Shown one piece after another: positions 6,901 to 37,438 of a stretch of 64,000 nucleotides of DNA. Source of the stretch: Streptomyces sp. R41 (GTDB taxonomy: Bacteria > Actinomycetota > Actinomycetes > Streptomycetales > Streptomycetaceae); assembly GCF_041053055.1 (NCBI RefSeq), contig NZ_CP163443.1, forward strand, positions 6,307,001 through 6,371,000. The letters run 5' to 3'. The notes beneath the pieces are model-generated. The model ran no database searches. It worked only from the letters and a program-made list of their open reading frames with translations, and was not told the DNA's origin. How positions within the stretch are numbered: position 1 is the stretch's first letter; each line of letters begins with the position of its first letter. The position numbers and the translations under genes were made by a program.

Positions 6901-8499
6901 CTCAACCGTTACAACACCCTCGGGCAACGAACGCAGCGCATCACCCCTTCGGGTTCGAGTACCCTCTGGACGTATGATGCCGCCGGTAATATAGGGGAAT
7001 TGAACGCATCCGGCCGCGTGATTCGATTCGATCGCGATCACGCCGGTCGGACAATCAGCCAACGTGTCGCGTCAAATGTACACTTGACGAACACCTTCGA
7101 CGAAGTCGGCCGCCTTACCGCGCAGAATGTGATATCTCCCGGTCTACCGGATAATCTGCATCGCTCCTATTCCTATCGTCCGGACGGGTATCTGATCCGT
7201 CTCGTTGATCACGCAAACGGGATACGTGACTTTGATCTTGATGTGGCCGGCCGTATTATTTCTCTTCGCTCCCCAAACTGGTCCGAGCGGTACGCGTATG
7301 ACGAAGTCGGCAATCAAATCGAAGCGGATTGGCCCGGCTCGCACCCGGGTCAGTCCGCCGTAGGTGCCCGCAGTTATGCCGGCACGCGAGTAATGCGTGC
7401 GGGCAACACCCGCTACGAATATGACGATCTAGGGCGCGTGACGCTGCGTCAAACAGCACGAATATCTCGCAAACCCGACTCCTGGCGGTACAAGTGGGAT
7501 GCCGAAGACCGTCTGGTTGAGACGGTAACCCCTGACGGGACCCATTGGTGTTACGAGTATGACGCTCTCGGGCGACGTACCGCGAAGCAGCGTCTATCAG
7601 CTGATGGTGCATCAGTCGTTGAGGAAACCAAGTTCACCTGGGACGGCTCATTCCTGTGTGAGCAGGCGACATACACTCGGGATCTTCCTCACGTCATCAC
7701 TCTCACCTGGGATCACGAGAACCTCCACCCGATCGCTCAAACTGAACGCATCGCCTCAGTCGACACGCCGCAGCGTGAAATCGACTCGCGCTTCTTTGCG
7801 ATCGTCACTGATCTGGTAGGAACACCGAGTGAGCTCATCGACGAGGCAGGTGCCATCGCCTGGCGAGCGCGCTCCACGCTCTGGGGGAAGACGGCATGGG
7901 CAACTGATTCCGCGGCGTACACACCTCTGCGTTTCCCCGGGCAGTACTATGACCATGAAACAGGGCTTCACTACAACTATTTCCGCCACTACGACCCCGA
8001 GACTGCCCGCTATCTCAGCCCCGACCCGCTGGGCATAGCGCCGGCCCCTAATCCGGTTACGTACGTCAGTAACCCCCACCGATGGACCGACCCGCTTGGG
8101 CTTTCTCCATACGTGGCTGTAGATACCAATCCCATGATTGACGCACTCAATGGTTCGCGGACCGCCGAAGTGGATGCTGCTTTGGCTGGCAGGACGCCGG
8201 TCCTCTCGCCGCAGGCGCACCGTGAACTGATCGAGGGCGGGCATTCACCTGAAGCCATCAGTAACTGGCTGGCAGAACGCGGTGGCCGAATGGGGCCGGA
8301 AGCCACGGCGGAGGGGGTCTCGGACATTCAAGGGCGACTTAAGGCCATGTGGAAGGGGAAGTCCTTCAATCCCATGATTCGTACGGACGATGCCAAGGTT
8401 CTGCATTCCGCGGCGCAGGAAGGGCTGTCGCTCATTACGAATGATAAGAAGTTTTATCAGAATGCGGAGAGGCTCGGCTATACGACTGAGCGGTATTAG
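3910..8499 (+). CDS. RHS/YD-repeat polymorphic toxin with WXG-like N-terminus and PIN-like C-terminal toxin domain
   Basis: A 1529-residue contact- or secretion-dependent toxin. Residues 1-110 are helical and contain a WAG turn (WXG100-like), suggesting type VII secretion. Residues 110-215 are Lys/Ala-rich coiled coil. Two hydrophobic helices lie near 243-280. A DUF6531-type entry domain begins with DPVDMATGAMF near 376. Dozens of YD/RHS repeats follow (YDxxGRxxxxxxxxG). The RHS core RYLSPDPLG leads to the DPLGL junction near 1394. The last ~130 residues after it are unlike the repeats: VDTNPMIDALN, an HREL-containing helix, IRTDDAKVLHSA and LITNDKKFY are spaced like the acidic residues of a PIN-domain RNase. 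GTG start after GGGGG. GC content falls in the 3' half, suggesting transfer. Confidence 0.88.
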   Translation: MAGNRPKDWHVLDLDKDPTPGDPDRVRHLAKNLHDFADDVGDALRLIKGMADEDAVLKWAGKSAKAFQDEFSGVPKQLKKLKKSYEMAGDALTDYWPKLERAQALADKALAKGREAQSDLSSAKSRLSSADSWVTKANKEADKYKDDPTGSKDTEKPDEAKVRAATRDAQHAKSAQTSAQSDVTSANGALDAAKKMAEDARKMREEAAKTAKDKIDEASDAGIRNRKWWEEVGDWFSDNWDTIVAVCKVVVAVVGIIAMIIGGPILGAIVLIAALVVLADTLNKYAKGQASLWDVAFAALDCIPGMKGITTLGGLAKGLKGGMAALKGIKGGLKGLGLAASGLGRSARGALADGAKGAYNRLKSVVRSKGSDPVDMATGAMFLPQTDIILPGTLPLAFTRRVASDYRTGWWFGPTWASTIDQRLEVDENGIVFVTEDGLLLAYPHPISPETPVLPEAGPRWPLILLDNGGYRIDDPLLGHGRHFSLPADGIALLTRIFDRNSNTISFDYDEHGTPLAIRHSGGYHLKLTTDEGRVTTLALAGAAEDGSDGIVRAYTYADGVLTAVINATGHPLNFTCDERQRITSWTDSNNCSYTYAYDSRDRCIAEGGEGGHLTITLDYDGADPAWPDCRVTTLTTAEGAVSRFVVNDSSQVVAEIDALDGTVRTAYDEHHHLLTRTDELGHTTRFINNDLGQPVEVSLPDGSVFQYAYDAMGQPTEGHLPDGTAWYREYDERGNCTAVTDAGGATYRYEYSVAGHVSAITDPMGYATTLECNSAGLPFRSIDPLGTTSRWERNAAGALVTYVDPLGHSTHFKWTAEGLLQSRTTPDGATEAWNYDGEGNCTSHTDAVGATTHFEYTHFDLLAARINPDGVRYAFEYDTSLRLTRIRNPQGREWQYTYDPAGRLVAETDFDDRVVTYTRDAVGRLASRANTLGQVVHYTHDVLGRVTRKNADGQITDFTYDHSGQLVHASNSYAELKFRRDEMGRIVEESVNGRAILNRYNTLGQRTQRITPSGSSTLWTYDAAGNIGELNASGRVIRFDRDHAGRTISQRVASNVHLTNTFDEVGRLTAQNVISPGLPDNLHRSYSYRPDGYLIRLVDHANGIRDFDLDVAGRIISLRSPNWSERYAYDEVGNQIEADWPGSHPGQSAVGARSYAGTRVMRAGNTRYEYDDLGRVTLRQTARISRKPDSWRYKWDAEDRLVETVTPDGTHWCYEYDALGRRTAKQRLSADGASVVEETKFTWDGSFLCEQATYTRDLPHVITLTWDHENLHPIAQTERIASVDTPQREIDSRFFAIVTDLVGTPSELIDEAGAIAWRARSTLWGKTAWATDSAAYTPLRFPGQYYDHETGLHYNYFRHYDPETARYLSPDPLGIAPAPNPVTYVSNPHRWTDPLGLSPYVAVDTNPMIDALNGSRTAEVDAALAGRTPVLSPQAHRELIEGGHSPEAISNWLAERGGRMGPEATAEGVSDIQGRLKAMWKGKSFNPMIRTDDAKVLHSAAQEGLSLITNDKKFYQNAERLGYTTERY

Positions 8500-8547
8500 C
8501 AGCAGGTCGGTGAAGGCTGCCCATGATCACTGAGGAGGGAATCTGTC

Positions 8548-8910
8548 ATGCATGAGGGTGGAAGCATGCCGGATGAAGAAGTCGGGCAAGAAATCGATCT
8601 CGACGAAATTGAAGAGGTATGTTCTGCGGCTACGCCGGGTCCATGGTTCGTCAGGAGCTTGGACGACGACTATGCCATGAATCTCGTAGCGGTGAGCACC
8701 GTGGAAGATACGGGACAGGGGGAGAGATGGCCCAATTTCGACCACCGCGAGATGATCGCTGCGACATTGGTACAACATCCCCGTTACGTCGATTGTGCAG
8801 ATGAACGCTGGGATGAGAATGCGGCGTTCATCGCGATGGCAAGGGAAGCAGTGCCACAACTCGTGAAGGAGATCAAACGTCTTCGGCGTTTGCTTTCTTC
8901 TGCCGAGTGA
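8548..8910 (+). CDS. small ATPGPW-motif protein, candidate immunity protein for the RHS toxin
   Basis: A 120-residue acidic, cytosolic-looking protein. It contains ATPGPWFV near residue 30, a middle segment, then a helix AAFIAMAREAVPQLVKEIKRLRRLL at the end. The combination of ATPGPW with a terminal AR..VP.L..E...LR helix recurs in phage and actinobacterial hypothetical proteins. It starts 48 bp after the toxin stop with a strong GAGGAGG 9 nt before the ATG, and shares the low-GC composition of the toxin tail. Position and size fit an immunity gene; homology does not prove it. Confidence 0.6.
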   Translation: MHEGGSMPDEEVGQEIDLDEIEEVCSAATPGPWFVRSLDDDYAMNLVAVSTVEDTGQGERWPNFDHREMIAATLVQHPRYVDCADERWDENAAFIAMAREAVPQLVKEIKRLRRLLSSAE

Positions 8911-9317
8911 GGCTCGGTTTCGCTGGCAGCGCGTGCTTGAGTAACGACGCTGCGGTTCGCGTCCGGCGCAGCTGCGAGCGCCTGAGGCGGTGGAGGCGAT
9001 CCGCGCTCTTGTACATGTTCCGGGCGGCAGGGCCGTGTAGCCCGAGCTGCTCACGACGACCGTATCCGCTCGGTCCTGACGCAGAGTCAGGGAGGAGTGG
9101 GCTGTTGGGGCCGGTTGAGCTGTGCGCGTGGCAGCGTCGTGGGTCGACCGGTTCGGGTTCCGGTTGGTGACGGTGAGCGTGACCCGGTCGAACTGGTAGT
9201 TGGACGAGTGGGGCCCGGGATGTCCCGGGCCCCATTACTTCGCGGCGGCGGGTTCGTGAACGTGGCCACGCCCTGCCGCCGGGCGGGCCGGTCCCGCACT
9301 ACCGGCCCTCAGTGCTG
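8911..9317. other. 407-bp intergenic region with one hairpin
   Basis: Between the candidate immunity gene and the convergent secreted-protein gene. No frame here has a supported start, and the open frames lack family features. The only clear structure is the terminator-like hairpin at 9209-9234, annotated separately. Confidence 0.6.
9209..9234 (-). terminator. terminator hairpin for the secreted-protein gene
   Basis: Two perfect 12-nt arms (TGGGGCCCGGGA and its complement) flank a TG centre. The hairpin lies 84 bp beyond the stop of the minus-strand gene and may also stop plus-strand transcripts. There is no long T tract, as usual in Streptomyces. Confidence 0.75.
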
Positions 9318-9845
9318 TCAGGTGGTGCCCCCGCCGTAGTTGCTGGGGGTGAAGCAGAAGTCGGCGTGGCTGACCGCGGGGAGCTGGCCGCCGTTGTTGA
9401 GCGGGGAGATGAGCCCCGTGTCGAACGCAATGCCGTTGGGGAAGCCGGTCACGGCGTTGTAGAGGTAGCGGTTGGCGTCGTCCCCGCCCTTGACGGTGAC
9501 CTGGCTGACCGCGATGGTGCCCGTGGTGGTGAAGCTGACCCGCCTGGGACCGTCGCCGACATTGTCGCTGAACGTGACGGTGACGGAGCCGGTTCCGTCG
9601 TTGGGGATGGTGACCGGGATCGTCTGCGGGTTGGTGCTGGGGGACACTCTGATCGCGTTCGAGCGGTCGGGACAGCTCCCTTTTTCGGTCGGATTGTCCG
9701 CCACAAAAATGGGCGGCACCGCCGCGGCCGCCGCGGGTCCGGCGCTGATGCCGACCGCCGCGGCCGTGGCCAGGCCGGCGCCGAGAAGCCGGGCTCCCCA
9801 TCTCGTGCGTCGCGACCGGGTCTTTACTCGGGTGGCTACTCGCAT
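9318..9845 (-). CDS. small secreted protein of unknown function
   Basis: A 175-residue protein. A Sec-type signal peptide is clear: Arg-rich n-region (RVATRVKTRSRRTRW), hydrophobic core LLGAGLATAAAVGISAG, and an AAAA cleavage site near residue 38. The mature part is Thr/Val/Ser-rich and probably all-beta (VTVTFSDNVG, RRVSFTTTGTIAVSQVTVKGG), with two Cys residues (SCPDRS near the start and FCFTPS near the end) that may pair. The ATG at 9845 is preferred to a GTG 9 bp upstream because AAGGAGGA sits 9 nt before it. No enzyme motif recognised. Confidence 0.8.
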   Translation of the reverse strand: MRVATRVKTRSRRTRWGARLLGAGLATAAAVGISAGPAAAAAVPPIFVADNPTEKGSCPDRSNAIRVSPSTNPQTIPVTIPNDGTGSVTVTFSDNVGDGPRRVSFTTTGTIAVSQVTVKGGDDANRYLYNAVTGFPNGIAFDTGLISPLNNGGQLPAVSHADFCFTPSNYGGGTT

Positions 9846-10460
9846 AACGAGCACTCCTCCTTGTTTTCTGGGTGTACCGGACCTGCCCTCGCGGACGCTC
9901 GCGCCTTTTCAATCGGCAGTTCGAGTTTTGAAGAACTGTCCGTCACCGGGCGTCACATCATTTGCATGATCGGACCGCCATCACGCCGCACGACTCCATT
10001 TCCTGAGCCGTTCGGGCTTCAAATGGGGGCCGGAAAGGTGAAGCGCGGCGTCGCGGCGCCGCGAGAAATCGAGGCGCGATCCGCGCCGGCCCGGCCCGGC
10101 CGGCCCCCGAGTGGCGAGCTGACGCCCGAGCTGTACGCCGAGGGACCCCGCGGCTTCCCCGACCGACGCCATCGACGACACGCCGACGTTCGAGCCGTTT
10201 CGGAAGCTGCCGCCGTGGTTCAAGTGGCGATGGATGCCGACAGCGGTGTGGGGCACCGTGCGGGGCTGGTGGGGCGGCTGCGGACCGTGGACGTGGTCGG
10301 CGGGGCCAGGCGGACCCGGCGCGGACGCGGCTCCTCAGGGAGGCGGGCAGCCTGTATGCGGTCGGTGTCCCCGGCTGGGCGGGCTGGTGGGTGAGGGCGG
10401 GACGTGACCCAGGTGCGGCCCCTTGGAGGTCCCAGTCCCGCGATCCCGGCCGGCCAGGGT

Positions 10461-10488
10461 TTGACCTGCGTCACCCTCGGGGTACGAT
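10461..10488 (+). promoter_or_regulatory. S10 operon promoter
   Basis: TTGACC and TACGAT separated by 16 nt match the vegetative sigma (HrdB) consensus. Transcription from here would give a leader of about 380 nt before rpsJ. Confidence 0.65.
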
Positions 10489-10563
10489 CCTCGGCTCGAT
10501 TGGCCAGCCCCCTGCCCCGTATGGCAGACTAACGGGGTTGCTCGGTCGAGTGCCGATGCTGCG

Positions 10564-10604
10564 CGCCTCCCGCCGGGAGGACTGGAAGCGAGTCCCACAG
10601 TACT
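10564..10604 (+). promoter_or_regulatory. structured segment of the rpsJ leader with competing hairpins
   Basis: CCTCCC-GCC-GGGAGG forms a stable hairpin at 10564-10578. Directly after it GGACT (10577-10581) can pair with AGTCC (10589-10593), or CGAGT (10587-10591) can pair with ACTCG (10600-10604); the last two share bases and exclude each other. This could be autogenous control of the S10 operon, but it is inferred from pairing only. Confidence 0.35.
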
Positions 10605-10872
10605 CGTCGCTCAATCTGCCGGAAGGCAGCGCTGGGGCGGACGTACGGGAATCTTCCGGGAAGTGTCAGCGGGGTGCAGACCAGGCGCCCGGTGGGTGTT
10701 CAGCCCCCGGTCCAGCGGTTGTTTTTGGGCCGCGTCCCTCGGTAGGGAAATCCGTAACACGGATATCTCTGTCAGCAGGAGCGCGACACGCCCGACCGCG
10801 TGGGTCGGAGGTAAGGGACGCGGACCCCCGGGTACCAGAGCGTTTTACGAGACAAAGGACTACTGAGTAGCC

Positions 10873-11181
10873 ATGGCGGGACAGAAGATCCGCATCCGGC
10901 TCAAGGCCTACGACCACGAGGTCATCGACTCCTCGGCGAAGAAGATCGTCGAGACGGTGACGCGCACTGGTGCGTCGGTCGCGGGCCCGGTGCCGCTGCC
11001 CACTGAGAAGAACGTGTACTGCGTCATCAAGTCGCCGCACAAGTACAAGGACTCGCGCGAGCACTTCGAGATGCGCACGCACAAGCGCCTGATCGACATC
11101 CTCGACCCGACGCCCAAGACCGTTGACTCTCTGATGCGACTCGACCTCCCGGCCGGTGTCGACATCGAGATCAAGCTCTAG
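10873..11181 (+). CDS. rpsJ: 30S ribosomal protein S10
   Basis: 102 residues, full length. S10 binds the 3' major domain of 16S rRNA in the small-subunit head and, as NusE, joins transcription antitermination complexes with Nus[20 protein letters not shown] and the [13 protein letters not shown] segment are diagnostic. First gene of the S10 operon, 17 bp ahead of rplC. Confidence 0.98.
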
Positions 11182-11198
11182 GGATCGGTGATCTGAGA

Positions 11199-11843
11199 AT
11201 GGCTAAGCAGATCAAGGGCATCCTGGGCGAGAAGCTCGGCATGACGCAGGTGTGGGACGAGAACAACCGTGTTGTTCCGGTCACCGTCGTCAAGGCCGGC
11301 CCCAACGTCGTCACCCAGGTCCGTACGAACGACACCGACGGCTACGAGTCGGTCCAGATCGCCTTCGGCGAGATCGACCCGCGCAAGGTGAACAAGCCCC
11401 TCAAGGGCCACTTCGCCAAGGCCGACGTCACTCCCCGTCGTCACCTCGTCGAGATCCGTACCGCTGACGCCAGCGAGTACACCCTCGGCCAGGAGATCAC
11501 TGCCGAGACCTTCGAGGCCGGCATCAAGGTGGACGTGACCGGCAAGAGCAAGGGCAAGGGCTTCGCCGGTGTCATGAAGCGTCACAACTTCAAGGGCCTC
11601 GGCGCCGGTCACGGCACCCAGCGCAAGCACCGCTCTCCCGGCTCCATCGGTGGCTGCGCCACCCCGGGTCGTGTGTTCAAGGGCCTCCGCATGGCGGGTC
11701 GTATGGGCAACGAGCGGGTCACCACCCAGAACCTGACCGTTCACGCCGTTGACGCGGAGAAGGGCCTGCTCCTTATCAAGGGCGCGGTTCCTGGTCCGAA
11801 CGGCGGCCTCGTCCTGGTCCGCACCGCGGCCAAGGGGGCCTGA
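11199..11843 (+). CDS. rplC: 50S ribosomal protein L3
   Basis: 214 residues. L3 is an early-assembly protein binding domain VI of 23S rRNA, with a long loop reaching the peptidyl transferase centre. [13 protein letters not shown] at the N-terminus and the conserved [15 protein letters not shown] loop are present; that loop carries the pleuromutilin/linezolid resistance positions. Five bp separate it from rplD. Confidence 0.98.
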
Positions 11844-11848
11844 GGACT

Positions 11849-12505
11849 ATGAGCACCATTGACATTCTGTCGCCCTCCGGCGACACCGCCGGGACTGTTG
11901 AGCTCCCGGCCGAGATCTTCGACGTAGAGAAGATCAGCGTTCCGCTGCTTCACCAGGTCGTCGTCGCACAGCTGGCCGCCGCCCGTCAGGGCACGCACAA
12001 GGTCAAGCGTCGTGGCGAGGTCCGCGGTGGCGGTAAGAAGCCTTACCGTCAGAAGGGCACCGGCCGCGCGCGCCAGGGTTCGACCCGTGCGCCGCAGTTC
12101 GCCGGCGGTGGCGTTGTCCACGGCCCCACGCCGCGTGACTACTCGCAGCGGACCCCGAAGAAGATGAAGGCCGCGGCCCTGCGCCACGCCCTCACCGACC
12201 GGGCCCGCAACGCTCGCATCCACGTCATCACCGGCGTGATCGAGGGCGAGACCCCCTCCACGAAGGCCGCGAAGAGCTTCCTCGGCAAGGTCAGCGAGCG
12301 CAAGAACGTGCTCCTGGTCATCGAGCGCTCCGACGAGGCCGCGCTGCTTTCCGCGCGCAACCTGCCCCAGGTCCACATCCTGGAGCCGGGCCAGCTGAAC
12401 ACGTACGACGTTCTCGTCTCGGACGACGTGGTCTTCACCAAGGCCGCTTTCGAGTCCTTCGTGTCTGGCCCCCAGGCCGCTGACACCGAAGGGAGCGAAG
12501 CCTGA
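11849..12505 (+). CDS. rplD: 50S ribosomal protein L4
   Basis: 218 residues. L4 binds domain I of 23S rRNA and its extended loop lines the exit tunnel near the macrolide site; [20 protein letters not shown] is that loop, with wild-type-looking sequence. Its stop overlaps the rplW start by one base (TGATG), so the two are translationally coupled. Confidence 0.98.
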
Positions 12506-12921
12506 TGGCTACGCGTCACCCGAGCATCGCCTCGAAGGCCGCCAAGGCCAAGAAGGTCGCGCGCGTCGCCAAGGCGAAGCGCCACGAGGCCGAGGGCAAG
12601 AACACCGTAGAGACGCCGCTGAGCAAGAGCTTCACGGATCCCCGTGACGTCCTCCTCAAGCCGGTCGTCTCCGAGAAGAGCTACGCGCTGCTCGACGAGG
12701 GCAAGTACACCTTCGTCGTGGACCCGCGGGCCAACAAGACCCAGATCAAGCAGGCCGTCCAGGCGGTCTTCTCGGTCAAGGTCACCGGGGTCAACACGAT
12801 CAACCGCCAGGGCAAGCGCAAGCGCACCCGCACCGGCTTCGGCAAGCGTGCGGACAGCAAGCGCGCGATCGTGACCCTCGCTGAGGGCGACCGTATCGAC
12901 ATCTTCGGCCAGGCCTCCTAA
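12505..12921 (+). CDS. rplW: 50S ribosomal protein L23 with N-terminal extension
   Basis: 138 residues. L23 sits at the tunnel exit and docks trigger factor and SRP. The core starts at [16 protein letters not shown] near residue 47; the preceding Lys/Ala-rich extension is usual in Streptomyces L23 and absent from most other bacteria. The core ends with the [18 protein letters not shown]-binding hairpin. Confidence 0.97.
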
Positions 12922-27574: not shown

Positions 27575-28432
27575 GTGAGTGACGAAGTACAGCCCGGTTT
27601 TGTACGGGTGCGGCTGGACCTTTCCTACGACGGGACCCAGTTCTCCGGGTGGGCCAAGCAGGCCGGTGGGCAGCGGACCGTGCAGGGGGAGATCGAGGAC
27701 GCCCTGCGGACGGTCACGCGGTCGAAGGACACCACGTATGAGCTGACCGTGGCCGGGCGGACCGATGCCGGGGTGCATGCTCGGGGGCAGGTGGCGCATG
27801 TCGATCTGCCGGTCGAGCTGTGGGCCGAGCATCAGGAGAAGCTGCTGAAGCGGCTGGCCGGGCGGCTGTCGAAGGACGTGCGGGTGTGGTCGCTCACCGA
27901 GGCACCCGAAGGGTTCAACGCGCGGTTCTCGGCGATCTGGCGGCGGTACGCCTACCGCGTCACCGACAACCCCGGCGGTGTGGATCCGCTGCTGCGCAAT
28001 CATGTCCTGTGGCACGACTGGCCGTTGGACGTCGATGCCATGAACGAGGCCGCTCAACGGCTGGTCGGGGAGCACGACTTCGCCGCCTACTGCAAGAGGC
28101 GTGAGGGCGCGACGACCATTCGTATGCTCCAGGAGCTGAGCCTGGTGCGCGGTGACGACGGGATCATCACCGCCACCGTCCGCGCCGACGCCTTCTGCCA
28201 CAACATGGTGCGTTCGCTGATCGGGGCGTTGCTGTTCGTGGGGGACGGGCATCGCGGGCCGGACTGGCCCGGGAAGGTGCTGGCCGCCGGGATACGCGAC
28301 TCCGCCGTGCATGTCGTACGGCCGCACGGACTGACCCTGGAGGAAGTCGGGTACCCCGCCGACGAGTTGCTGGCCGCGCGCAACAAGGAGGCGCGGAACA
28401 GGCGGACGCTGACCGGGGGCGGCTGCTGCTGA
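27575..28432 (+). CDS. truA: tRNA pseudouridine(38-40) synthase TruA
   Basis: 285 residues. Isomerises uridines 38-40 in the tRNA anticodon stem. The catalytic Asp is in [13 protein letters not shown], near residue 66; the N-terminal [16 protein letters not shown] and the [11 protein letters not shown] helix are typical. GTG start. Convergent with the acyltransferase gene. Confidence 0.96.
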
Positions 28433-28474: not shown

Positions 28475-30805
28475 TCACTTCTTCAGGGCCGTGGCCAATG
28501 ACTTCTCCAGCCACGGGGTGACATAGCCCATGCCGACCTTGGTGAGATGCACGCCGTCACCGTCGGGGTAGAGGCGCTTGCCCTTGGCGTTGTACTGCAC
28601 GCACTCGCCGTCGGGGCAGAGGAAGGCGTCGAGGTTCAGCAGGGAGACTTCGGCCGGGGCCGACTTCACGTACGTGGAGATCACGTCGTTGAAGCAATCG
28701 CCCCACTTCTCGATGATGGCGCCGTTGGCGCGTCGCTCGTTCATCAGCAGGATCTTGGTGTTCGGCGCCTGCTTCTGGACCACGGCGACGGCCGCCGTCA
28801 ACTGCTTCAGATAGCGGGTGCGGTAGGCCGAGTCGCAGGAAGTCAGCCACCTGCCGCCGATCTTCTGCTCGGCGGCGTCCCATCCGACGTGGACGAGGAC
28901 GGCGTCGGGCTGGGTGTTCTCCAACTGGTCGGCCCAGTAGTTCTTCCAGCCGATGCAGGAGTTCCAGTTCGTCAGGACCTTGCCGACGCGGTCGCGCACC
29001 GCCTGCGGGGACATGACGCCACAGCCGCCCTGGCCTCCGTCGATGACCGCGTAGCCGTTGCCGTGCTGGGCCAGGGAGGTTGCGAAGTCCTCCGCCATCG
29101 AGTCGCCCAGGGTCAGGACGAGCGGCTTGCCGTCCGGGCGCATCGAGTCGGCGACGTAGGTGGGCAGGTAGTACGAGCCGAGGCCGATGACCAGGGACGC
29201 CACGGTGAACACCGGGACGGCCCGCATGGGGCGCCAGTCGCGCACCCGATACTGCTCGATCGAGTAGTGCATGACCATCGACAGCAGCCAGGTGAGCCCG
29301 GCACCCAGCAGAAACAGGGCGTACGGCTTCATGTCCGGGTAGGCCATGAGCAGCACCCAGTACACCGGCAGGTGCAGCAGATACATGCTGTACGAGATCT
29401 GGCCGATCTCCATCAGCGGCTTCAGGCGCAGGGCCCGTGCCAGCGGGCCGCGGTCCGTGCTCAGGCAGGCGGCGGTCAGCGCGATCAGGAGGGCGACGAC
29501 GGCCAGTCCGCCCTGGTAGAGCCAGGGCTCGTGGTAGGTGCTCACCTTGATGCTGAGGTACACCACCGCGGCCAGGGACACGATCGCCGTCAGCGAGGCG
29601 AGGTGGTACACGAAGCCGCCCCCGGACCCGCCGTCGCCACCGTCCTCGGAGGCGCGGCGGCTCTCCGCGGCCGTGCGCTGCACCAGGTACACGACGAACG
29701 CGGCCGCCGCGCCCGCCATGAAGGCCACCGCACGGGTGTGGGTGGCCAGGTACAGGAAGTCGGTGTCGTGGTTGCCGCCGCGCCACAGCACGGGTGCGAC
29801 CAGCGCCGACGCGGCGAAGAGCAGCACAGCGAGGACGGCGACCGGCAGCACCCGGCGGCGGAAGACCGCGAAGGCGGCGACCAGGACCAGCGGCCACACG
29901 ACGTAGAACTGCTCGGTGATGCTCAGCGACCACATCGCGGAGAGCGGCTGGATGGCTCCGAAGTGGTCCCAGTAGGAGTCGCCGCGGGCGATCTGGGCCC
30001 AGTTGCCCACCTGGAAGAGGGCGCCGAGCGCCTGCTGCGAGACCGCGCGGGACTCCTTCAGCGGGCTCGTGAGGTACGAGAGGGCCACCACCAGGGCCAG
30101 GGCCACCATCAGGCCCGGCAGCAGGCGCTTGAAGCGGCGGCGGTAGAACCGCCCGACGCGGATACGGCCGGTGCGCTGCACCTCGCGGATCAGCACGAGC
30201 GTGGTGAGGAAGCCGGAGAGTACGAAGAAGGCGTCCACGCCGAACAGACCGTTGCTGAACCAGTTGGTGTGGTACAGCAGCACGGAGAGGATGGCGATTC
30301 CGCGCAGGCCGTCCACGGCCTCGAAGCGGGACCGCATGGGCGCGGGCTTCGACGCCTTGTCCGCCGGGGGCTTCTCGCTTCGGGCGGGCTTCGGCGCCGG
30401 CTCGGGATCCGACGCGGATACGGCCGGTGCGACAGGGGTCTGGACGACCGCCGTGCCGTGGCCGCCGTACGGCTGGTCCGCCTGTGGCTGCCGGGGGATC
30501 TGGGGCGTGTACTGCTGCTGCGGCTGGGCCTGGGGCTGCCCCGGATGCTGCGGGATCAGCTGCCCGACGTACTGCTGGGGCGGCGCGGGCGGGCGGCCGT
30601 ACTGCTGCCCGTATGCCTGCTGGTCGTACCCCGGGCGGCCCTGCCGGCCGTACGCCTGCTGCTGACCTTGCTGCCCGTACGGCTGCTGTTGCCCCTGCTG
30701 CCCGTACGCCTCCGGCTGTCCCTGCTGTCCGTACCCCTGCTGCCCGTAGGGCTGCTGTTCGTGGCCGTCAGGGCCCGGGTGTTCAGTGGGCGGCTGACGA
30801 TGCAT
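28475..30805 (-). CDS. AT3-SGNH membrane O-acyltransferase (OatA-like) with a Gln/Gly/Tyr/Pro-rich N-terminal tail
   Basis: 776 residues. Residues 1-135 are low complexity with repeated YGQQG units. Residues about 160-530 are an acyltransferase-3 membrane domain with about ten helices: [19 protein letters not shown] carries the conserved His, and DAFFVLSGF and [14 protein letters not shown] the R-rich motif. The C-terminal ~200 residues form an extracellular SGNH domain: [10 protein letters not shown] (nucleophile Ser), HVGWD, and DGDGVHLT (Asp and His). AT3-SGNH proteins move acetyl groups across the membrane onto surface glycans. Last gene of the putative mannan operon; its ATG lies 23 nt inside the preceding gene. 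Substrate is inferred from context. Confidence 0.9.
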
Positions 30806-31928
30806 GGGGTACTCCAGAGTGAGCGACGGCCTGCGCGGTGCAGGGAGCGGGGGATGCGGAGGTGCGGACGCCGTGGGCGGGCAGGAAGGCCCCGCAGGCG
30901 ATGCGCAGACCCGGCGGGAGTTCGTTGCCCTCGGCCACCCGGGCGCCGTCGCCGACGACCACCGCGTCCAGGACGCTGTCCTCGCCGATCACGGCGTGGC
31001 GTCCGACCACGGACGCGGACAGGCTGGCGCGGGCGGCGACCCGGGCACCGGTCAGCAGCACGCTGCCGTCGACCACCGCTCCCGCGCCGACCTCGGCGCC
31101 GGGGCCGACCACGGTGCCCCCGCTGAGCACGGCGCCGGGGTGCACCCGGGCGCCCGGCAGGACGAGGGACTCGCCGGTCGGGCCGGGCAGCGCAGGGGAG
31201 GTGACCCGGCCGCGCACGAGGTCCGCCGAGCCCTGGACGAACGCGGCCGGGGTGCCCAGGTCGAGCCAGTAGCTGTCGTCGACGACTCCGCGCACATGGG
31301 CGCCCGAGGCGAGCAGCTCGGGGAAGGTCTCGCGTTCCACGGAGACGTTCCGGCCGGCCGGGATCCGGTCGATCACCGAACGGGTGAAGACATAGCAACC
31401 CGCGTTGATCTGGTCGGTGGTGATCTCCTCGGGCGTCTGGGGCTTCTCCAGGAAGGCCCGGACGCGTCCTTCGGCGTCGGTGGGCACCAGGCCGAAGGCG
31501 CGCGGGTCGGCCACGCGCTGGAGGTGCAGGGTGACATCGGCCCGCGAGGCGACATGGCTGTCGCGCAGCGCGGCGACATCCAAGCCGGAGAGGATGTCGC
31601 CGTTGAAGACCAGCACCGGTTCGCCGGGGGCGCTGCGCAGTCGCTCGGCCGCGTTGCGGATGGCTCCGCCGGTGCCGAGGGCCACCTCTTCGGTGACGTA
31701 CTCGAGTTCCAGTCCGAGGCGGGAGCCGTCGCCGAACTCCTCCGCGAACAGCTCGGCGAGGTAGGAGGTCGCGAAAACGATCCGGGTGATCCCCGCGGCC
31801 GCGGCCCGCGCCAGCTGGTGCGTGAGGAACGGTACTCCGGCCACGGGCAGCAGCGGCTTGGGAATGTGGCTGGTCAGGGGCCGAAGCCGGGTGCCCTGAC
31901 CGCCGACGAGAAGGATCGCTTCAGTCAT
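30783..31928 (-). CDS. mannose-1-phosphate guanylyltransferase-like nucleotidyltransferase
   Basis: 381 residues. The N-terminal ~235 residues form a nucleotidyltransferase domain: [20 protein letters not shown] is the signature loop, VFNGDIL holds the metal-binding Asp, and INAGCYVF and VERETFPEL follow. Residues about 250-355 are left-handed beta-helix hexapeptide repeats ([19 protein letters not shown]). This layout fits enzymes making GDP-mannose from mannose-1-phosphate, or less likely ADP/UDP-glucose. It lies 57 bp after the GH113-like gene and overlaps the acyltransferase start, consistent with supplying the sugar donor for the GT2 synthase. Confidence 0.85.
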
Positions 31929-31985
31929 GTGGTGTCCGCCTTGGGTCGCGGGGACGGGTCATGGATGCGTGGGGGGATGTCTCCA

Positions 31986-33236
31986 TTACTGGGCGGCCGC
32001 GCTGCCGGGCCCGGCGTAGTCGGAGGTGAAACAGGTCTTGACGGCTTTCTCACTCTTGGGGCGCCCGGCGAAGTCCAGGCGGGAGGCCGTTTTGTCGTCC
32101 GGTGGGGTGTTGGGGTCGTCGTCGAAGTAGATCGACCACCAATAGACGCCGCTCATTCGGCGTTCCTGGACGACCTTGCAGACGGCCGTGTACCAGTTGG
32201 CCTGCACCTGCGGGTTGACGGGATTCTTCGTGTAGAAGTCGCCGGGTGACTTGTACGCGCCGTTCATCGCGCCGATTCCGGCCTCGGCGAGGGTGATGTT
32301 GGGCAGGTCGCCCGTGGTCTTCTTGTCGAGCCAGGTGTTCCAGCCCTCCGCGAGCCGGTCGACGGAGGCGTTGTCGGGCACCTTGACGGGAAAGTAGGCG
32401 TCTACGCCGAGGTGGCTGACCGGCATGTTGATGCGGCCCGAGACGTAGTTGTCCCAGTTGGCGTCGTAGGCCACCTCACCGGAGAAGACCTTCTCCGCCG
32501 AGGCCACCAGAGAGTCCCAGCCCGGGGCGCCCTCCATGGAGTTCAGCTCGGTGCCGATCACGAAGGTGTTCGCCTTGTCCTGGTCGGCGACCTTGAGATA
32601 CGGGGTGAGGAGCTTCAGGTAGGAGGCGAACCAGGCGGAGCGGGAGGCGGGCTCGATGTTGCCGCGCCAGCCGGTCGGCGGGTCGAGCGAGGCCTCGTCC
32701 ATGATCGGCCGGACCGTGGTGCGGAAGCCGGCGTCCTCGAACACCTTCAGCACCTTCTGCAGGCGCTCCGCGGACGGCGTCTTCGCGCCGGCCGTCAGGG
32801 TGTTGGACGTACGGCCCCCGGTGTAGAAGGGGAACGAGATCGACACCGAGTTGGCGCCCAGGCTGATGAGGTACTTCGCGTGCTTGCGCGCCTGCTCGAC
32901 GACGAAGTCGTCGGACCGCTTCTTGGTCTCCTCCTCCCAGTACAGCTGCACGCCCCACTGAGGCATGCCCTCCTTCCAGGCCTTGGCGACCTTGAGGGTG
33001 TCCTCGGAAGCGGAGCCGGAGGAAGAGGAGGAGTTCGGGGACGCGGACTTCTTGGTTCCGGTCGCCGAGGTGGAGTTCCCAGCGCCGGAGCCGTCGTTGC
33101 CGAAGACGAGCCTGGGCAGGACGGAGCCGGAGTCCCAGCGCACCGGCTGGTTGCCGATGAACAGGGGCGTGCCGACCACTACGGCGAGGACGGACAGGGG
33201 AAAGACGGCCAGCATCGGCAGTCGCGAGCGCTTCAT
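31986..33236 (-). CDS. secreted GH113-like beta-mannanase
   Basis: 416 residues. An N-terminal hydrophobic signal/anchor (LPMLAVFPLSVLAVVVGTPL) is followed by a Ser/Thr-rich linker and a TIM barrel from about residue 85. Features match GH113: ANSVSISFPFYTG, VRPIMDEASLDPPTGWRGNI, FVIGTELNSM (likely acid/base Glu), VAYDANWDNY, SHLGVDAYFP, and ITLAEAGIG (likely nucleophile Glu). GH113 enzymes cleave beta-1,4-mannan. Sixteen to 19 bp after the synthase gene, so it may trim or release the polymer, like the cellulase in cellulose operons. A GTG 3 bp upstream could also start translation. Confidence 0.8.
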   Translation of the reverse strand: MKRSRLPMLAVFPLSVLAVVVGTPLFIGNQPVRWDSGSVLPRLVFGNDGSGAGNSTSATGTKKSASPNSSSSSGSASEDTLKVAKAWKEGMPQWGVQLYWEEETKKRSDDFVVEQARKHAKYLISLGANSVSISFPFYTGGRTSNTLTAGAKTPSAERLQKVLKVFEDAGFRTTVRPIMDEASLDPPTGWRGNIEPASRSAWFASYLKLLTPYLKVADQDKANTFVIGTELNSMEGAPGWDSLVASAEKVFSGEVAYDANWDNYVSGRINMPVSHLGVDAYFPVKVPDNASVDRLAEGWNTWLDKKTTGDLPNITLAEAGIGAMNGAYKSPGDFYTKNPVNPQVQANWYTAVCKVVQERRMSGVYWWSIYFDDDPNTPPDDKTASRLDFAGRPKSEKAVKTCFTSDYAGPGSAAAQ

Positions 33237-33255
33237 CACGGGTGCTTTCGTGCGG

Positions 33256-34707
33256 TCAGGCGGGTTTGGCGATCACGACGAACTTGTTCTCCTCGCGCCG
33301 GAGGAACTTCAGGAAGCCCTTGAAGCCTCCGAGCCCTTCCAGTACGGAGAAGACGGGGATGAGGGCGATCACGACGACCGGCTCCCACCACTTGCGCCGG
33401 CCGCTCGCCGAGGCGATGGCGTTGAGGCGCAGCCCTTCCCAGTAGGTCCAGATGACGTAGGCGAAGTTGAGGGCCCACAGGATGACGACGGACTGGGTGA
33501 CGGGCGAGGTGTTGAGGTCGCCGACGAGCAGTCCGATGCAGAGCACCGCGACGATGTGCTGGAGCGGACCGAGGATCCAGGTGGCCACGCACACGGAGAG
33601 GAACCAGCGGTAGCGCCACGGAATGGTGCGGTTGAAGCAGAGCGCCACCAGGCCCCAGGCCCAGCGGTCGCGCTGTTTGACGAAGTCCTTGGTGGTGGCC
33701 GGGGAGGCGCCGTAGCAGCGTCCGTTGAACCAGTCGCTGCGGCCGGGGTAGCGGCGGCAGAAGCTGAGGGCGAGTTGGGCGTCCTCGACGATCGCCTTCG
33801 GCCCGAAATCCCAGCCGATGGTGGCCTCGATGGACGCGCGGAGCACCAGCAGTTCGCCGTGGACTCCGGCCGCCGGGGTGCCCATGCCGGTCAGCGCCCG
33901 GAAGCGGGCGATGTCGTCGGCGGGTCGCACCGCGTCGGCGAGCCAGGTGAAGAGGTTGACCGCGTTCTCGCGGGGATACGTGAGGATGCCCTGGGCCATG
34001 TGCTTGGCCTCGTCGGGGTGGGCGCGGCGCTGGCGGTTGATGAACTGGGCGAGCGAGGCCGCCGTGTCGGGGCCGACGCCGGTGTCGTCGTCCATGTGCA
34101 GCACCCACACGTGGTCGAGGGCCTCGCCCTCCTCGATCCGCAGCTCATGCGCGTAGTTGTTGGCGCGAGCCTTGAAGCGGGTCCCGTTGGCGGTCACGTA
34201 CGCCTTGGGCGTCTCCACTACGCGGATGAGCGGGTTCGAGGCGGCGAGCCGGTCGATCGACTGGGTGGCCTCGCAGCCCTCCTCGGTGAGGACGTCGACG
34301 CGCATGTAGGGGAAGTACTCGGGCAGGTGCTCGACATAGGAGAGCACCGAGCGCTCCAGCGCCGGGTAGGTGTCGTGCCGACCGATCGTCGGTACGAGGA
34401 CGATCAGGAAGTCCTGGTCGACGGGGGCCGGCGGCACCATACGGTCGCTCTGCCGCACCCGGCGCCGGATGAGCAGGGCGCCCTGGATGCCCACCATCAC
34501 ACCGATCACCGGCAGCGACCAGACGACGGTGAGCGCCCAGCTCAGCGGAGAGGAGCTGGGGCGGTAGGTGTACAGCCCGAAGAACAGCAGCAGCACGAAA
34601 GGCAGGAGGAACGGCACGATGCCAGGTCTCCAGGCCTCAGTGCGCTTCGCCAGTTTCGCGTTGTGACGAGAGTGCGAGGCACCCCCGTCGACCATTGTCG
34701 ACGCCAT
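33256..34707 (-). CDS. membrane glycosyltransferase family 2, Egghead/BRE-3-like beta-mannosyltransferase or polysaccharide synthase
   Basis: 483 residues. Two N-terminal transmembrane helices (about 28-50 and 56-80), a cytosolic GT-A domain (about 95-335), then three or four C-terminal membrane helices. The catalytic motifs of processive GT2 enzymes are present: VLHMDDDTG (DxD), AIVEDAQLA (catalytic ED) and QRDRWAWG (QxxRW). The IVEDA...WFNGRCYGASPAT..DF..QRDRW order resembles eukaryotic Egghead/BRE-3 beta-1,4-mannosyltransferases more than cellulose synthase, and no PilZ domain is visible. First gene of the operon, with its own regulatory region upstream. Probably polymerises and exports a mannose-containing chain; linkage is inferred. 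Confidence 0.82.
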   Translation of the reverse strand: MASTMVDGGASHSRHNAKLAKRTEAWRPGIVPFLLPFVLLLFFGLYTYRPSSSPLSWALTVVWSLPVIGVMVGIQGALLIRRRVRQSDRMVPPAPVDQDFLIVLVPTIGRHDTYPALERSVLSYVEHLPEYFPYMRVDVLTEEGCEATQSIDRLAASNPLIRVVETPKAYVTANGTRFKARANNYAHELRIEEGEALDHVWVLHMDDDTGVGPDTAASLAQFINRQRRAHPDEAKHMAQGILTYPRENAVNLFTWLADAVRPADDIARFRALTGMGTPAAGVHGELLVLRASIEATIGWDFGPKAIVEDAQLALSFCRRYPGRSDWFNGRCYGASPATTKDFVKQRDRWAWGLVALCFNRTIPWRYRWFLSVCVATWILGPLQHIVAVLCIGLLVGDLNTSPVTQSVVILWALNFAYVIWTYWEGLRLNAIASASGRRKWWEPVVVIALIPVFSVLEGLGGFKGFLKFLRREENKFVVIAKPA

Positions 34708-34723
34708 GACGACTGCTCAGCTC

Positions 34724-34765
34724 CCGTGAAATCAGTGGCGCGCTGGAGCAGTGGCGATTTCACGG
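34724..34765 (-). promoter_or_regulatory. leader inverted repeat upstream of the GT2 synthase
   Basis: CCGTGAAATC (34724-34733) and GATTTCACGG (34756-34765) are perfect 10-nt arms. They lie 17-58 bp before the GT2 start and could form a leader hairpin or bind a regulator. Confidence 0.45.
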
Positions 34766-34774
34766 CATGACACA

Positions 34775-34798
34775 AAAGGCGCGCGTCGGCGCGCCTTT
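34775..34798. terminator. terminator between the GH26 gene and the GT2 operon
   Basis: AAAGGCGCGC and GCGCGCCTTT arms with a GTCG loop. On the minus strand it is followed by T's, fitting a terminator for the upstream GH26 gene and making the GT2 operon a separate unit, unless the GT2 promoter lies upstream and the hairpin acts as an attenuator. Confidence 0.7.
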
Positions 34799-34881
34799 GT
34801 TCCCGGGCCCCCACCCTCCAACACCTTCTTCGGTGCGTCGGCCTCTCAGATGCCCCCCCAGGCGCCCGAAGCTCAGGCCGA

Positions 34882-34903
34882 ACAGAAACGTGATTCTGTC
34901 ACG
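34882..34903. promoter_or_regulatory. overlapping inverted repeats, candidate operator of the GT2 operon
   Basis: ACAGAA-N6-TTCTGT (34882-34899) overlaps CGTGA-N5-TCACG (34889-34903); both are perfect. The second resembles a CRP-family site with one base less in the centre. On the minus strand, TTGAAC-18-TTCCAT just upstream could be a promoter. Confidence 0.45.
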
Positions 34904-34958
34904 CAAGTAGTTGAGTATGGAACAGGTGTGAGCAGGATGTGTTCAAGAAGTAACAAAC

Positions 34959-36350
34959 CTAGGGCTTGTGCAGTGATGTCCAGTCGACATCCGACTCAAG
35001 GGCCCTCCCACCGCCGGTGATGACCTTTGGTGAGCCGTAGGTCTGCTTCACGTCCGTGGCGGTGTTCTTGCCCCGGGGCGAGGACACGTTGTCGAACGTC
35101 AGCGCCTGCCCCCACACCGTCCACAGCACCCACGGAGTCCTGGTCAGGGTGTCCGGCCGGGCCGCGTTGAGCGGCACATGGAAGGACTCGGCCACGATCC
35201 GGGGCTTGCGGTACTCCTCCAGGCCGCGGTACCAGACCTCGGTCCAGGCACCGTCGCCGAACGGCTCGGCAGGGGAGTCGCTGTAGTCGTCGACGCCCAC
35301 GACGTCGACGTAACGGCCGCCCGGGTAGTACGCCCGCGGCTGCCGTCCGTAGGCGCCGTCCCAGGAGTTGGGCGCCCAGACGAAGATCAGGTTGTGCAGT
35401 CCGCGGCGGTCCACGAGGTAGTCGTGGGTGAGCCGCCAGAGCTTCCGGTACGCGGACGGGTCCTGGCCCGCCCACCAGAAGCCGTTGCGGTCGGGCGCCG
35501 TGTTCATCTCGTGGTACGGGCGGAGCAGGACCGGCACCCCGTGGTCCGCGAGATAGCCCAGGTGATCGGCGAGGTAGTCGAGGTCGCGCAGCAGCTCCCG
35601 GTGTTCGGTGCTGCCCGGGGTGACCACCCGGCCGAACCAGCCCGGGTCCTTCGCCCCGGGGGAGTGGCGGCGCAGCGTCGCGTCGAAGCCCTTCACCGTG
35701 CTGCCCGGGTACGGCTGGTGGAAGGAGACCCCGACCAGGCCCGCCGGGGCGCCGCCGTTGTCCGGCAGGGTGACCTCGGTGCCGGAGGCGCAGTCCGTGT
35801 GCGTGCCGGAGGGGTGGTAGGAGCCGTCCGCCCCTCGGGGCAGGCCCGCCCAGACGCCGAGCGCGAGGTCCACGACGTCGTCGGCGTACCCCCAGTACTC
35901 ACGGCAGCTCGGCCAGGAGCGGGAGTACGAGCGGGACTCGCCCACCGCCCAGCCCGGCCGGTCGTAGCCGGGACCGAGGTCCAGCTCCACGAAGCCGGGC
36001 AGCCGTCCGGTGATGTCGCGCACCTTGCGGTAGTAGTAGCCCGGCTGTTTGGTGCCCTTGTAGTCGCCGTACAGCGCGTTGTACCGCTCGTTGTGCAGCT
36101 CGACGTGCTGGCCGATCACGGTGCGGCCCGGGCGGCCCAGGCGCGCGCGGTTCTCCAGGCCCGCCAGCATCGCGTAGACCCGGCGCGCCGCGGGGGTCGC
36201 CGCCGGGTCCCGCTGGCGCAGATCGGTGGGGACGGTGCGGGGGCCGGGCGCCGGCTCGTCGCCCTTCGGCCAGGCCCATATCGCGAGCGGAGCCAGCAGC
36301 GCCGCCCCGGCCGCGGCCCCGATCAGCCGGACTCTCCCGCGCGCCCGCAC
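34959..36350 (-). CDS. secreted GH26 beta-mannanase
   Basis: 463 residues. An N-terminal signal or anchor (VRLIGAAAGAALLAPLAIWAW) precedes a GH26 TIM barrel. GVSFHQPYPGS, VLLRPYHEMN (acid/base Glu near residue 280), NLIFVWAPNSWDG, YVDVVGVDDYSD and RIVAESFH (nucleophile Glu near 407) match GH26 endo-beta-1,4-mannanases in order and spacing. GTG start. Its own promoter lies about 45 bp upstream. A second mannanase fold next to the GH113-like gene supports a mannan-type substrate for the locus. Confidence 0.9.
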   Translation of the reverse strand: MRARGRVRLIGAAAGAALLAPLAIWAWPKGDEPAPGPRTVPTDLRQRDPAATPAARRVYAMLAGLENRARLGRPGRTVIGQHVELHNERYNALYGDYKGTKQPGYYYRKVRDITGRLPGFVELDLGPGYDRPGWAVGESRSYSRSWPSCREYWGYADDVVDLALGVWAGLPRGADGSYHPSGTHTDCASGTEVTLPDNGGAPAGLVGVSFHQPYPGSTVKGFDATLRRHSPGAKDPGWFGRVVTPGSTEHRELLRDLDYLADHLGYLADHGVPVLLRPYHEMNTAPDRNGFWWAGQDPSAYRKLWRLTHDYLVDRRGLHNLIFVWAPNSWDGAYGRQPRAYYPGGRYVDVVGVDDYSDSPAEPFGDGAWTEVWYRGLEEYRKPRIVAESFHVPLNAARPDTLTRTPWVLWTVWGQALTFDNVSSPRGKNTATDVKQTYGSPKVITGGGRALESDVDWTSLHKP

Positions 36351-36489: not shown

Positions 36490-37377
36490 CTACTCGTTGG
36501 CCGCCGCCGACGCCTGGGCCTCGCCTCGCCTGCGGATCTGCCGGAAGGCGAACTCGGCGATGTCGTCGCCGCTCGTGAAGACCTTGGTGTCCTTCGTCGT
36601 CACGTCCTTGCCGTTGGTGAACCCGGCGAGCGTGAAGTAGGCGTAGCGGCCGTAGGAGTTGGTGGTCGAGCGGCAGACGGCGGAGTTGCAGAAGGACTTG
36701 ACGCCGTTGCCGGACAGGGAGGTGACGATGCTCTTCTTGTCCGCCGCGCCCTTGGCCTTGGCCGCCTGCGCCTCGGTGTCGAAGACGGCCACGCCGACCG
36801 TCACCGCGACACCGTCCTTGGTGTAGGTGACGCGCAGGACGCGTGTGCAGCCGTTCTTGGTGAGGACCGCGGGGAGGGTGCCCTTCGTGGCCGAGGCGCA
36901 GTTCTTCGTGTCCGCCGTCGGGCCCTTGCGGTAGACGCGGTCACCCATCGTCAGCTGCGTACCGGGGAAGAGGATGTCCGGGCTGAGCGGTGCCGTGTCC
37001 TTCTTCGCGCTGGATATGAAGTCCTTCGGATCCAGCGGGGGAGGCGCCGAGGTCGGCTCGAACGAGGGGGCCGGCGCGGTGGTCTCGCTCGGGATGTTCG
37101 CGGTGGCGGGCAGGTTCGAGGGCTGGTTCGAGGCCCGGCTGTCCCCGTTCGCGGACACCACGGCCACGGCGACGGCCGCGCCGACCGCCATCGTGGCGAG
37201 CGCTCCGCCGCCGATGAACAGCAGTCTGCGGCGTTTGTTGCGCGTCTCGGACGCCTCGGCGAGTGCCGCCCAGTCAGGAGTCCGATCGGCGGTCTGGTTG
37301 CCCCATTGAGGCTGCTGAGAACCCGGCTTCCAGGGATCCCACGGGGGCTGCCCCTGCCCACCCTGCCCATAACTCAT
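36490..37377 (-). CDS. single-pass membrane-anchored protein of unknown function
   Basis: 295 residues. A cytosolic Gly/Gln/Pro-rich N-terminus (SYGQGGQGQPPWDPWKPG) is followed by one transmembrane helix (RRRLLFIGGGALATMAVGAAVAVAVV, about 52-77), a Thr/Pro-rich linker and an extracellular domain of about 170 residues with four or more Cys (NCAS, GCTR, FCNSAVCRS). No catalytic motif recognised. The start at 37377 is 7 nt from a TAAGAT -10 element, so the mRNA is probably leaderless. Divergent from the GT87 gene. Confidence 0.8.
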   Translation of the reverse strand: MSYGQGGQGQPPWDPWKPGSQQPQWGNQTADRTPDWAALAEASETRNKRRRLLFIGGGALATMAVGAAVAVAVVSANGDSRASNQPSNLPATANIPSETTAPAPSFEPTSAPPPLDPKDFISSAKKDTAPLSPDILFPGTQLTMGDRVYRKGPTADTKNCASATKGTLPAVLTKNGCTRVLRVTYTKDGVAVTVGVAVFDTEAQAAKAKGAADKKSIVTSLSGNGVKSFCNSAVCRSTTNSYGRYAYFTLAGFTNGKDVTTKDTKVFTSGDDIAEFAFRQIRRRGEAQASAAANE

Positions 37378-37384
37378 GCGCCGC

Positions 37385-37390
37385 ATCTTA
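37385..37390 (-). promoter_or_regulatory. -10 element TAAGAT, leaderless promoter
   Basis: Minus-strand TAAGAT ends 7 nt before the start codon at 37377; no Shine-Dalgarno is present. Confidence 0.5.
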
Positions 37391-37438
37391 GACGGGCGTC
37401 GGGGGGTGCCGTTCCGCATCACGGCGCACTCGAGCCCC

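Follow-up and report, generated by a model that had tools for sequence, protein, structure and literature searches.

An Egghead-family membrane glycosyltransferase with mannanase-family partners in Streptomyces sp. R41, a candidate system for an O-acylated beta-mannan

The window analysed here, a stretch of 64,000 nucleotides, corresponds to positions 6307001-6371000 of one 10.46-Mb contig of Streptomyces sp. R41, and its near kin are found in Streptomyces and related genera. Five intact open reading frames at 28475-36350 of the window, all on the minus strand, encode a glycoside hydrolase of family GH26, a family 2 glycosyltransferase (GT2), a GH113 hydrolase, a nucleotidyltransferase (referred to here as the NTP transferase) and an AT3-SGNH acyltransferase (Table 1). 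We consider it likely, with a probability of about 0.78, that these genes encode a synthase-dependent system, with the GT2-GH113 pair as its core and the GH26, NTP transferase and AT3-SGNH proteins as variable partners, that makes an O-acylated polysaccharide of the cell surface or extracellular space, either a beta-1,4-mannan or a mannose-rich glucomannan. The GT2 is tied to mannan by the mannanase neighbours of its relatives, by its co-occurrence with such genes across Streptomyces genomes, by GT2-GH113 fusions and by the guanosine diphosphate (GDP)-mannose enzyme of the operon. A preliminary description of this DNA had proposed the same gene set, and Pfam and NCBIfam matches agree with it, the five genes being open at the stated coordinates and lying on one strand.

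The animal enzymes Egghead and BRE-3 use GDP-mannose as donor and form a beta-1,4 linkage to a glucosylceramide acceptor. By BLASTP the GT2 is 27% identical to insect Egghead across 325 residues (111 bits; E-value of 8e-31 in one comparison), with the homology covering the greater part of the catalytic region and of the C-terminal membrane region and including a shared LAD-xx-R-xx-DD stretch. It scored 99.4 bits against a profile built from 10 insect Eggheads, compared with 2.9, 0.4 and -1.5 bits for the controls E. coli BcsA, PgaC and NfrB, and 19.6, 8.8, 7.4, 5.9 and -2.1 bits for five of the eight other PF13632 matches in the genome. A tree, to which long-branch warnings apply, also places the GT2 with the Egghead family. 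The motifs MDDDT (at 205), VEDA (at 307) and QRDRW (at 345) were proposed earlier to be arranged as in Egghead and BRE-3, and the alignment indeed has the D-x-D/E acidic pair, ED and QxxRW all in register. On this sequence evidence the GT2 is a member of the Egghead/BRE-3 family, as BLASTP, profile and tree all side with Egghead rather than with non-mannose synthases. PF13632 is its only Pfam domain, in agreement with the expectation that it has no PilZ domain.

BcsA and hyaluronan synthase both polymerise and export their chain. The AlphaFold model of the GT2 has a cellulose-synthase-like fold and resembles BcsA, hyaluronan synthase and PcManGT, an archaeal mannosyltransferase used as a fold comparator (PMC10569066), equally well. 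We count these fold ties in favour of the proposed mannan system and regard the structural case as weaker than the sequence case.

Table 1. Genes of the proposed mannan system, with coordinates in the window and the matches on which their assignment is based (aa, amino acids; pLDDT, predicted local distance difference test).
Feature	Coordinates	Strand	Basis
Egghead-family membrane GT2, 483 aa, proposed beta-mannan synthase	33256..34707	-	PF13632 85 bits; Egghead homology; AlphaFold pLDDT 89.6; cellulose-synthase-like fold
GH113 mannanase-family protein, 417 aa, N-terminal hydrophobic anchor or signal	31986..33239	-	PF22612 91 bits; solved beta-mannanases
Mannose-1-phosphate guanylyltransferase (NTP transferase), 381 aa, proposed GDP-mannose supply	30783..31928	-	NF052502 526 bits
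AT3-SGNH O-acyltransferase, 776 aa, Q/G/Y-rich N-terminal tail	28475..30805	-	PF01757 and PF19040 above cut-off
GH26 mannanase-family protein, 463 aa, N-terminal hydrophobic segment, upstream of GT2	34959..36350	-	PF02156 98 bits

Both hydrolases have the features of mannanase families. The GH113 protein scored 90.9 bits with PF22612 (cut-off 27) and matches solved beta-mannanases (best E-value 5.6e-08); its Glu231 and Glu319 align with Glu residues in 5ylh, a mannanase of solved structure, and among 68 related GH113 proteins Glu231 is kept in all 68 and Glu319 in 67. The GH26 protein scored 98.2 bits with PF02156 (cut-off 20.2), a match that covers only profile positions 124-232 of 311, and its closest solved relatives are beta-mannanases. 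Its Glu281 and Glu388, the latter being the probable nucleophile, are kept in all 44 related GH26 proteins. A simple hydropathy scan found a single N-terminal hydrophobic segment in each hydrolase (residues 10-28 in the GH113), which suggests export or membrane anchoring. Genome-wide, a tally restricted to GH26 and GH113 gave one match to PF02156 and two GH113 matches; as the only GH26 and one of the two GH113s are in the same locus, their clustering exceeds chance.

The GT2 and GH113 genes are separated by 16 bp and the GH113 and NTP transferase genes by 57 bp; the AT3-SGNH gene starts inside the NTP transferase gene, with a 23-bp overlap, and the GH26 gene ends 251 bp before the start of the GT2. 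A gene-neighbourhood search, as the preliminary description had suggested, extended this linkage to other genomes. A contig scan found 87 relatives of the GT2, the best 80 of which were kept and gave 79 loci, and in 75 of these a mannanase-family gene (GH113, GH26 or GH5) lies within the fetched flank. GH113 and GH26 are both present in 42 loci, GH113 alone in 26, GH26 alone in two and GH5 in five, and in all 68 loci with a GH113 it is on the same strand as the GT2. The GH5 partners are those of five Dactylosporangium loci. The one from Dactylosporangium roseum (L076) scored 220-374 bits with eight solved chains, of which six are named beta-mannanase and the other two are an "Endoglucanase" (4y7e, which scores like the mannanase 3wsu) and a "Cellulose-binding family II" protein (4fk9), whereas other cellulases reach 36 bits at most. 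We take its subfamily to be GH5_8; the remaining four GH5s were identified by similarity to this protein only.

Fusion of the two core genes provides further support for their association. When L103, a distant member of the family, was used as query, 234 matches were obtained, and among the 120 listed at least two proteins, of 860 and 862 residues, join GT2 and GH113 in one chain, their GH113 domains scoring 144 and 140 bits by hmmscan. The two proteins are 74% identical to each other and therefore count as one case. In one of them, P0191, a hydrophobic segment (498-516) separates the two domains and takes the place of the N-terminal segment of the window GH113. The GT2 and GH113 halves of P0191 are 30% and 32% identical to the window proteins, respectively, and for the latter half a match to solved endo-beta-1,4-mannanases gave an E-value of 1.6e-26.

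Two other observations were made on proteins of this type. A single long frame in S. viridochromogenes NRRL 3413 (L075, 2063-6199) spans part of the GT2 and the GH113, and could be a natural fusion, a deletion or an assembly fault. Among the same 120 matches, P0183, P0186, P0202 and P0214 are Egghead-family GT2s with an N-terminal MshEN domain, of which P0202 and P0214 each have two stretches. MshEN binds cyclic di-guanosine monophosphate (c-di-GMP) in other proteins, and its presence in this sister branch suggests that some synthases may be c-di-GMP-switched; Pfam found no MshEN in the window GT2.

The distribution of the genes in Streptomyces also links the GT2 with GH113. The GT2 is present in 14 of 150 sampled genomes, that of strain R41 included. 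A close GH113 (44-100% identity) is present in 14 of the 14 GT2-positive genomes versus one of the 136 GT2-negative genomes (Fisher test, 8e-19), and a close GH26 in 10 of 14 versus four of 136 (53-54% identity; five with one at 36%; p of about 1e-9), although these statistics ignore kinship and the identity line was set after the hits were known. Remote GH113s (25-28% identity) in five further GT2-negative genomes were excluded from the count. By these numbers the tie of the GH26 to the GT2 is looser than that of the GH113. The lone GT2-negative genome with a close GH113 (G014) has two internal stop codons in that gene.

The five genes are flanked by truA (27575-28432) and the rplM region. 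The adjoining gene at 36490-37422 is present in 38 of 41 Streptomyces genomes (that of strain R41 included) and is a core Streptomyces gene outside the system; in two GT2-negative genomes (L117 and L119) truA is directly followed by this core gene. Based on the presence of the GT2 in only 14 of the 150 genomes and the decayed copy in G014, we view the set as an island of the truA-rplM slot that is either present or absent. The truA slot of G014 (L116, 6627-7738) has decayed remnants of GT2, GH113 and AT3.

The NTP transferase scored 526.1 bits with NF052502, the NCBIfam model of Rv3264c-type mannose-1-phosphate guanylyltransferases, and so passes the curated cut-off of 440, which favours the guanylyltransferase identity proposed earlier over an enzyme for a non-mannose sugar nucleotide. 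Two genes of the genome are above this cut-off, and the copy outside the operon (564 bits) is presumably the housekeeping one. The AT3-SGNH protein has fused AT3 (PF01757, 96 bits) and SGNH (PF19040, 39 bits) domains, both above cut-off, and contains the stretches LYH, GDSM and DGVHLT, which we take to be AT3 and SGNH motifs. An AT3 alignment of 46 mixed relatives had only A171, D191, W269 and P287 at 97% identity or more, and none of these is presumed to be catalytic. AT3-SGNH proteins are typical of surface polymers.

Based on these assignments, we propose that the NTP transferase would make GDP-mannose in the cytosol and that the Egghead-family GT2 would link mannose units in beta-1,4 linkage on the cytosolic face, acting processively and moving the growing chain across the membrane. 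On the outer face, where it is probably anchored, the GH113 may cut or trim the chain in the manner of BcsZ in cellulose systems. The GH26, once exported, may cut the chain a second time or free the polymer. The AT3-SGNH protein, judging from its family, would bring acyl groups over the membrane onto the chain outside, where the finished polymer would have its presumptive surface or extracellular role.

Several points weigh against a mannan polymer or limit its reach. The 79 loci and 150 genomes are mutually related, with a few species occurring twice among the loci. The GH26 is absent from four of the 14 GT2-positive genomes and present in four GT2-negative ones. A gene related to the NTP transferase (at least 300 bits) is near the GT2 in 35 of the 79 loci and an AT3 gene (at least 50 bits) in 46, with contig ends cutting some loci. 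These genes are concentrated in the truA-rplM slot (26 of 27 loci for the NTP transferase and 25 of 27 for AT3, compared with nine and 21 of the remaining 52) and, therefore, seem to belong to the version found in this slot and not to the family as a whole. The four loci without a mannanase gene are L074 and three with distant GT2s, and as the latter adjoin genes for CHAT, caspase, patatin or TIR proteins, part of the family may act otherwise. A Streptomyces GH113, CCK30803.1, was soluble yet inactive on mannans (PMC9032380); it may be of the WecB-locus type, comparable to the second GH113 of this genome discussed below. As mannanases also cut glucomannan, the product may contain glucose. Finally, animal Egghead mannosylates a lipid, so family membership is no proof of polymerisation.

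The distant GT2s just mentioned (L095, L099 and L102) lie beside CHAT and PQQ, caspase and patatin, or TPR-S and TIR proteins, neighbourhoods that resemble bacterial conflict systems.

The strongest alternative is that the product of the GT2 is a beta-mannosyl glycolipid or a short lipid-linked oligosaccharide that the hydrolases edit, because animal Egghead serves glycolipid synthesis; its work in glycosphingolipid synthesis is described in PMC10337751, in whose reference list the title of Wandall 2003 calls Egghead a beta-1,4-mannosyltransferase. We consider this unlikely, however, as three mannanase families recur next to the GT2, the products that the active GH113s of clades 2-4 release from mannans are mostly M3 and M4 (PMC9032380), and the operon includes an AT3-SGNH gene.

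A quite improbable alternative to the proposed mannan is a polymer of N-acetylmannosamine (ManNAc) or another modified sugar, with a GH113 of shifted specificity, along the lines of the ManNAc-rich polymer proposed for a Clostridioides difficile locus of GT2, GH113, WecB and deacetylase (PMC7710045). The genome of strain R41 itself has a locus resembling that proposal, with GH113, DUF2334, an unrelated GT2 and WecB (L112, C1:2926001-2946000, at 6508-12537). However, the window GT2 is unlike the L112 GT2 (5.5 bits with profile A2), the two GH113 proteins are only 29% identical, the window operon has a GDP-mannose enzyme, and searches with the WecB and DUF2334 proteins of this genome found neither of them in the window or in any of the 79 loci.

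The hydrolases might instead serve plant mannan digestion and lie next to an unrelated GT2 by chance or through shared regulation. This reading draws on the classical role of GH26, GH5_8 and GH113 in mannan degradation, on the breakdown of plant polymers by Streptomyces and on the four GT2-negative genomes that have a close GH26. We consider it quite improbable in view of the GT2-GH113 fusions, the co-occurrence of the GT2 with a close GH113, their shared strand and 16-bp gap, their pairing in 68 of 79 loci and the finding by Pfam of no carbohydrate-binding module in either hydrolase.

The combination of a membrane GT2 synthase with a cognate hydrolase is known from BcsA-BcsZ, from CslA-GlxA-CslZ of Streptomyces, whose CslA-GlxA cellulose complex has been described (PMC11022532), and from clostridial CcsZ, and the overall fold of the window GT2 is common to BcsA. 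In these cellulose systems, however, the partner is a cellulase rather than a mannanase-family protein, and the window GT2, which has no PilZ, is of another branch than E. coli BcsA, which reaches 2.9 bits with the Egghead profile. The preliminary description had also noted the lack of BcsB, and a single E. coli BcsB sequence, which is a weak probe, had no match in the window or in any of the 79 loci. In Bacteroidetes, GH113 genes close to GT2 genes have been suggested to act in polymer building or remodelling (PMC9032380), as has the C. difficile locus (PMC7710045); the portions of these papers available to us name no Egghead-family synthase, and the C. difficile locus differs in its WecB and deacetylase. 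Rhizobium leguminosarum likewise has a surface polymer that contains mannose, a glucomannan with the synthase gene gmsA, compared here by description (PMC4149787), and the wps-1 cluster of Actinoplanes has a GH26 within an actinomycete polysaccharide cluster, although the latter is predicted to be of the Wzx/Wzy type and, in the portion available, no Egghead-type synthase is mentioned (PMC13390465). Our searches, within the literature text available, found no description of an Egghead-family bacterial synthase or of this operon, in keeping with the impression that its composition is unfamiliar in Streptomyces. The logic of synthase and cognate hydrolase is thus known, while the synthase branch and the proposed polymer would be new.

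The animal enzymes use a glycolipid, whereas the bacterial ones adjoin or are fused with mannanases and are proposed to polymerise. We lean slightly towards the broader view that the bacterial Egghead family forms a separate class of beta-mannan synthases that act processively, with a core of synthase and outer-face mannanase that are sometimes one polypeptide, and that animal Egghead is its non-polymerising relative. Such a dedicated family would extend the synthase-dependent polysaccharides by one polymer and one synthase branch, both new, would explain why actinomycete GH113 enzymes lie beside a membrane synthase, and would offer a small genetic system for producing acylated mannans. It would also tie animal Egghead to bacterial polysaccharide synthesis, making the choice between adding one sugar and building a chain directly testable.

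Some additional features of the loci were observed. With E. coli BcsA as query, a BcsA-like gene was found at some distance from the GT2 in the flanks of two loci among the 79 (L068, 19926-21449, and L101, 4565-6985). The NTP transferase and AT3 genes are each of two types, which are matched in all 29 loci holding both, as if swapped as a cassette (truA-rplM slot, L024-L102), and kinship could explain this pairing; the one type-B NTP transferase examined scored 451 bits, above the guanylyltransferase cut-off. The N-terminal region of about 130 residues of the AT3-SGNH protein (about 30415-30805, minus strand) is rich in Q, G, Y and P, with repeats like PYGQQGQQQ, and is probably disordered and cytosolic.

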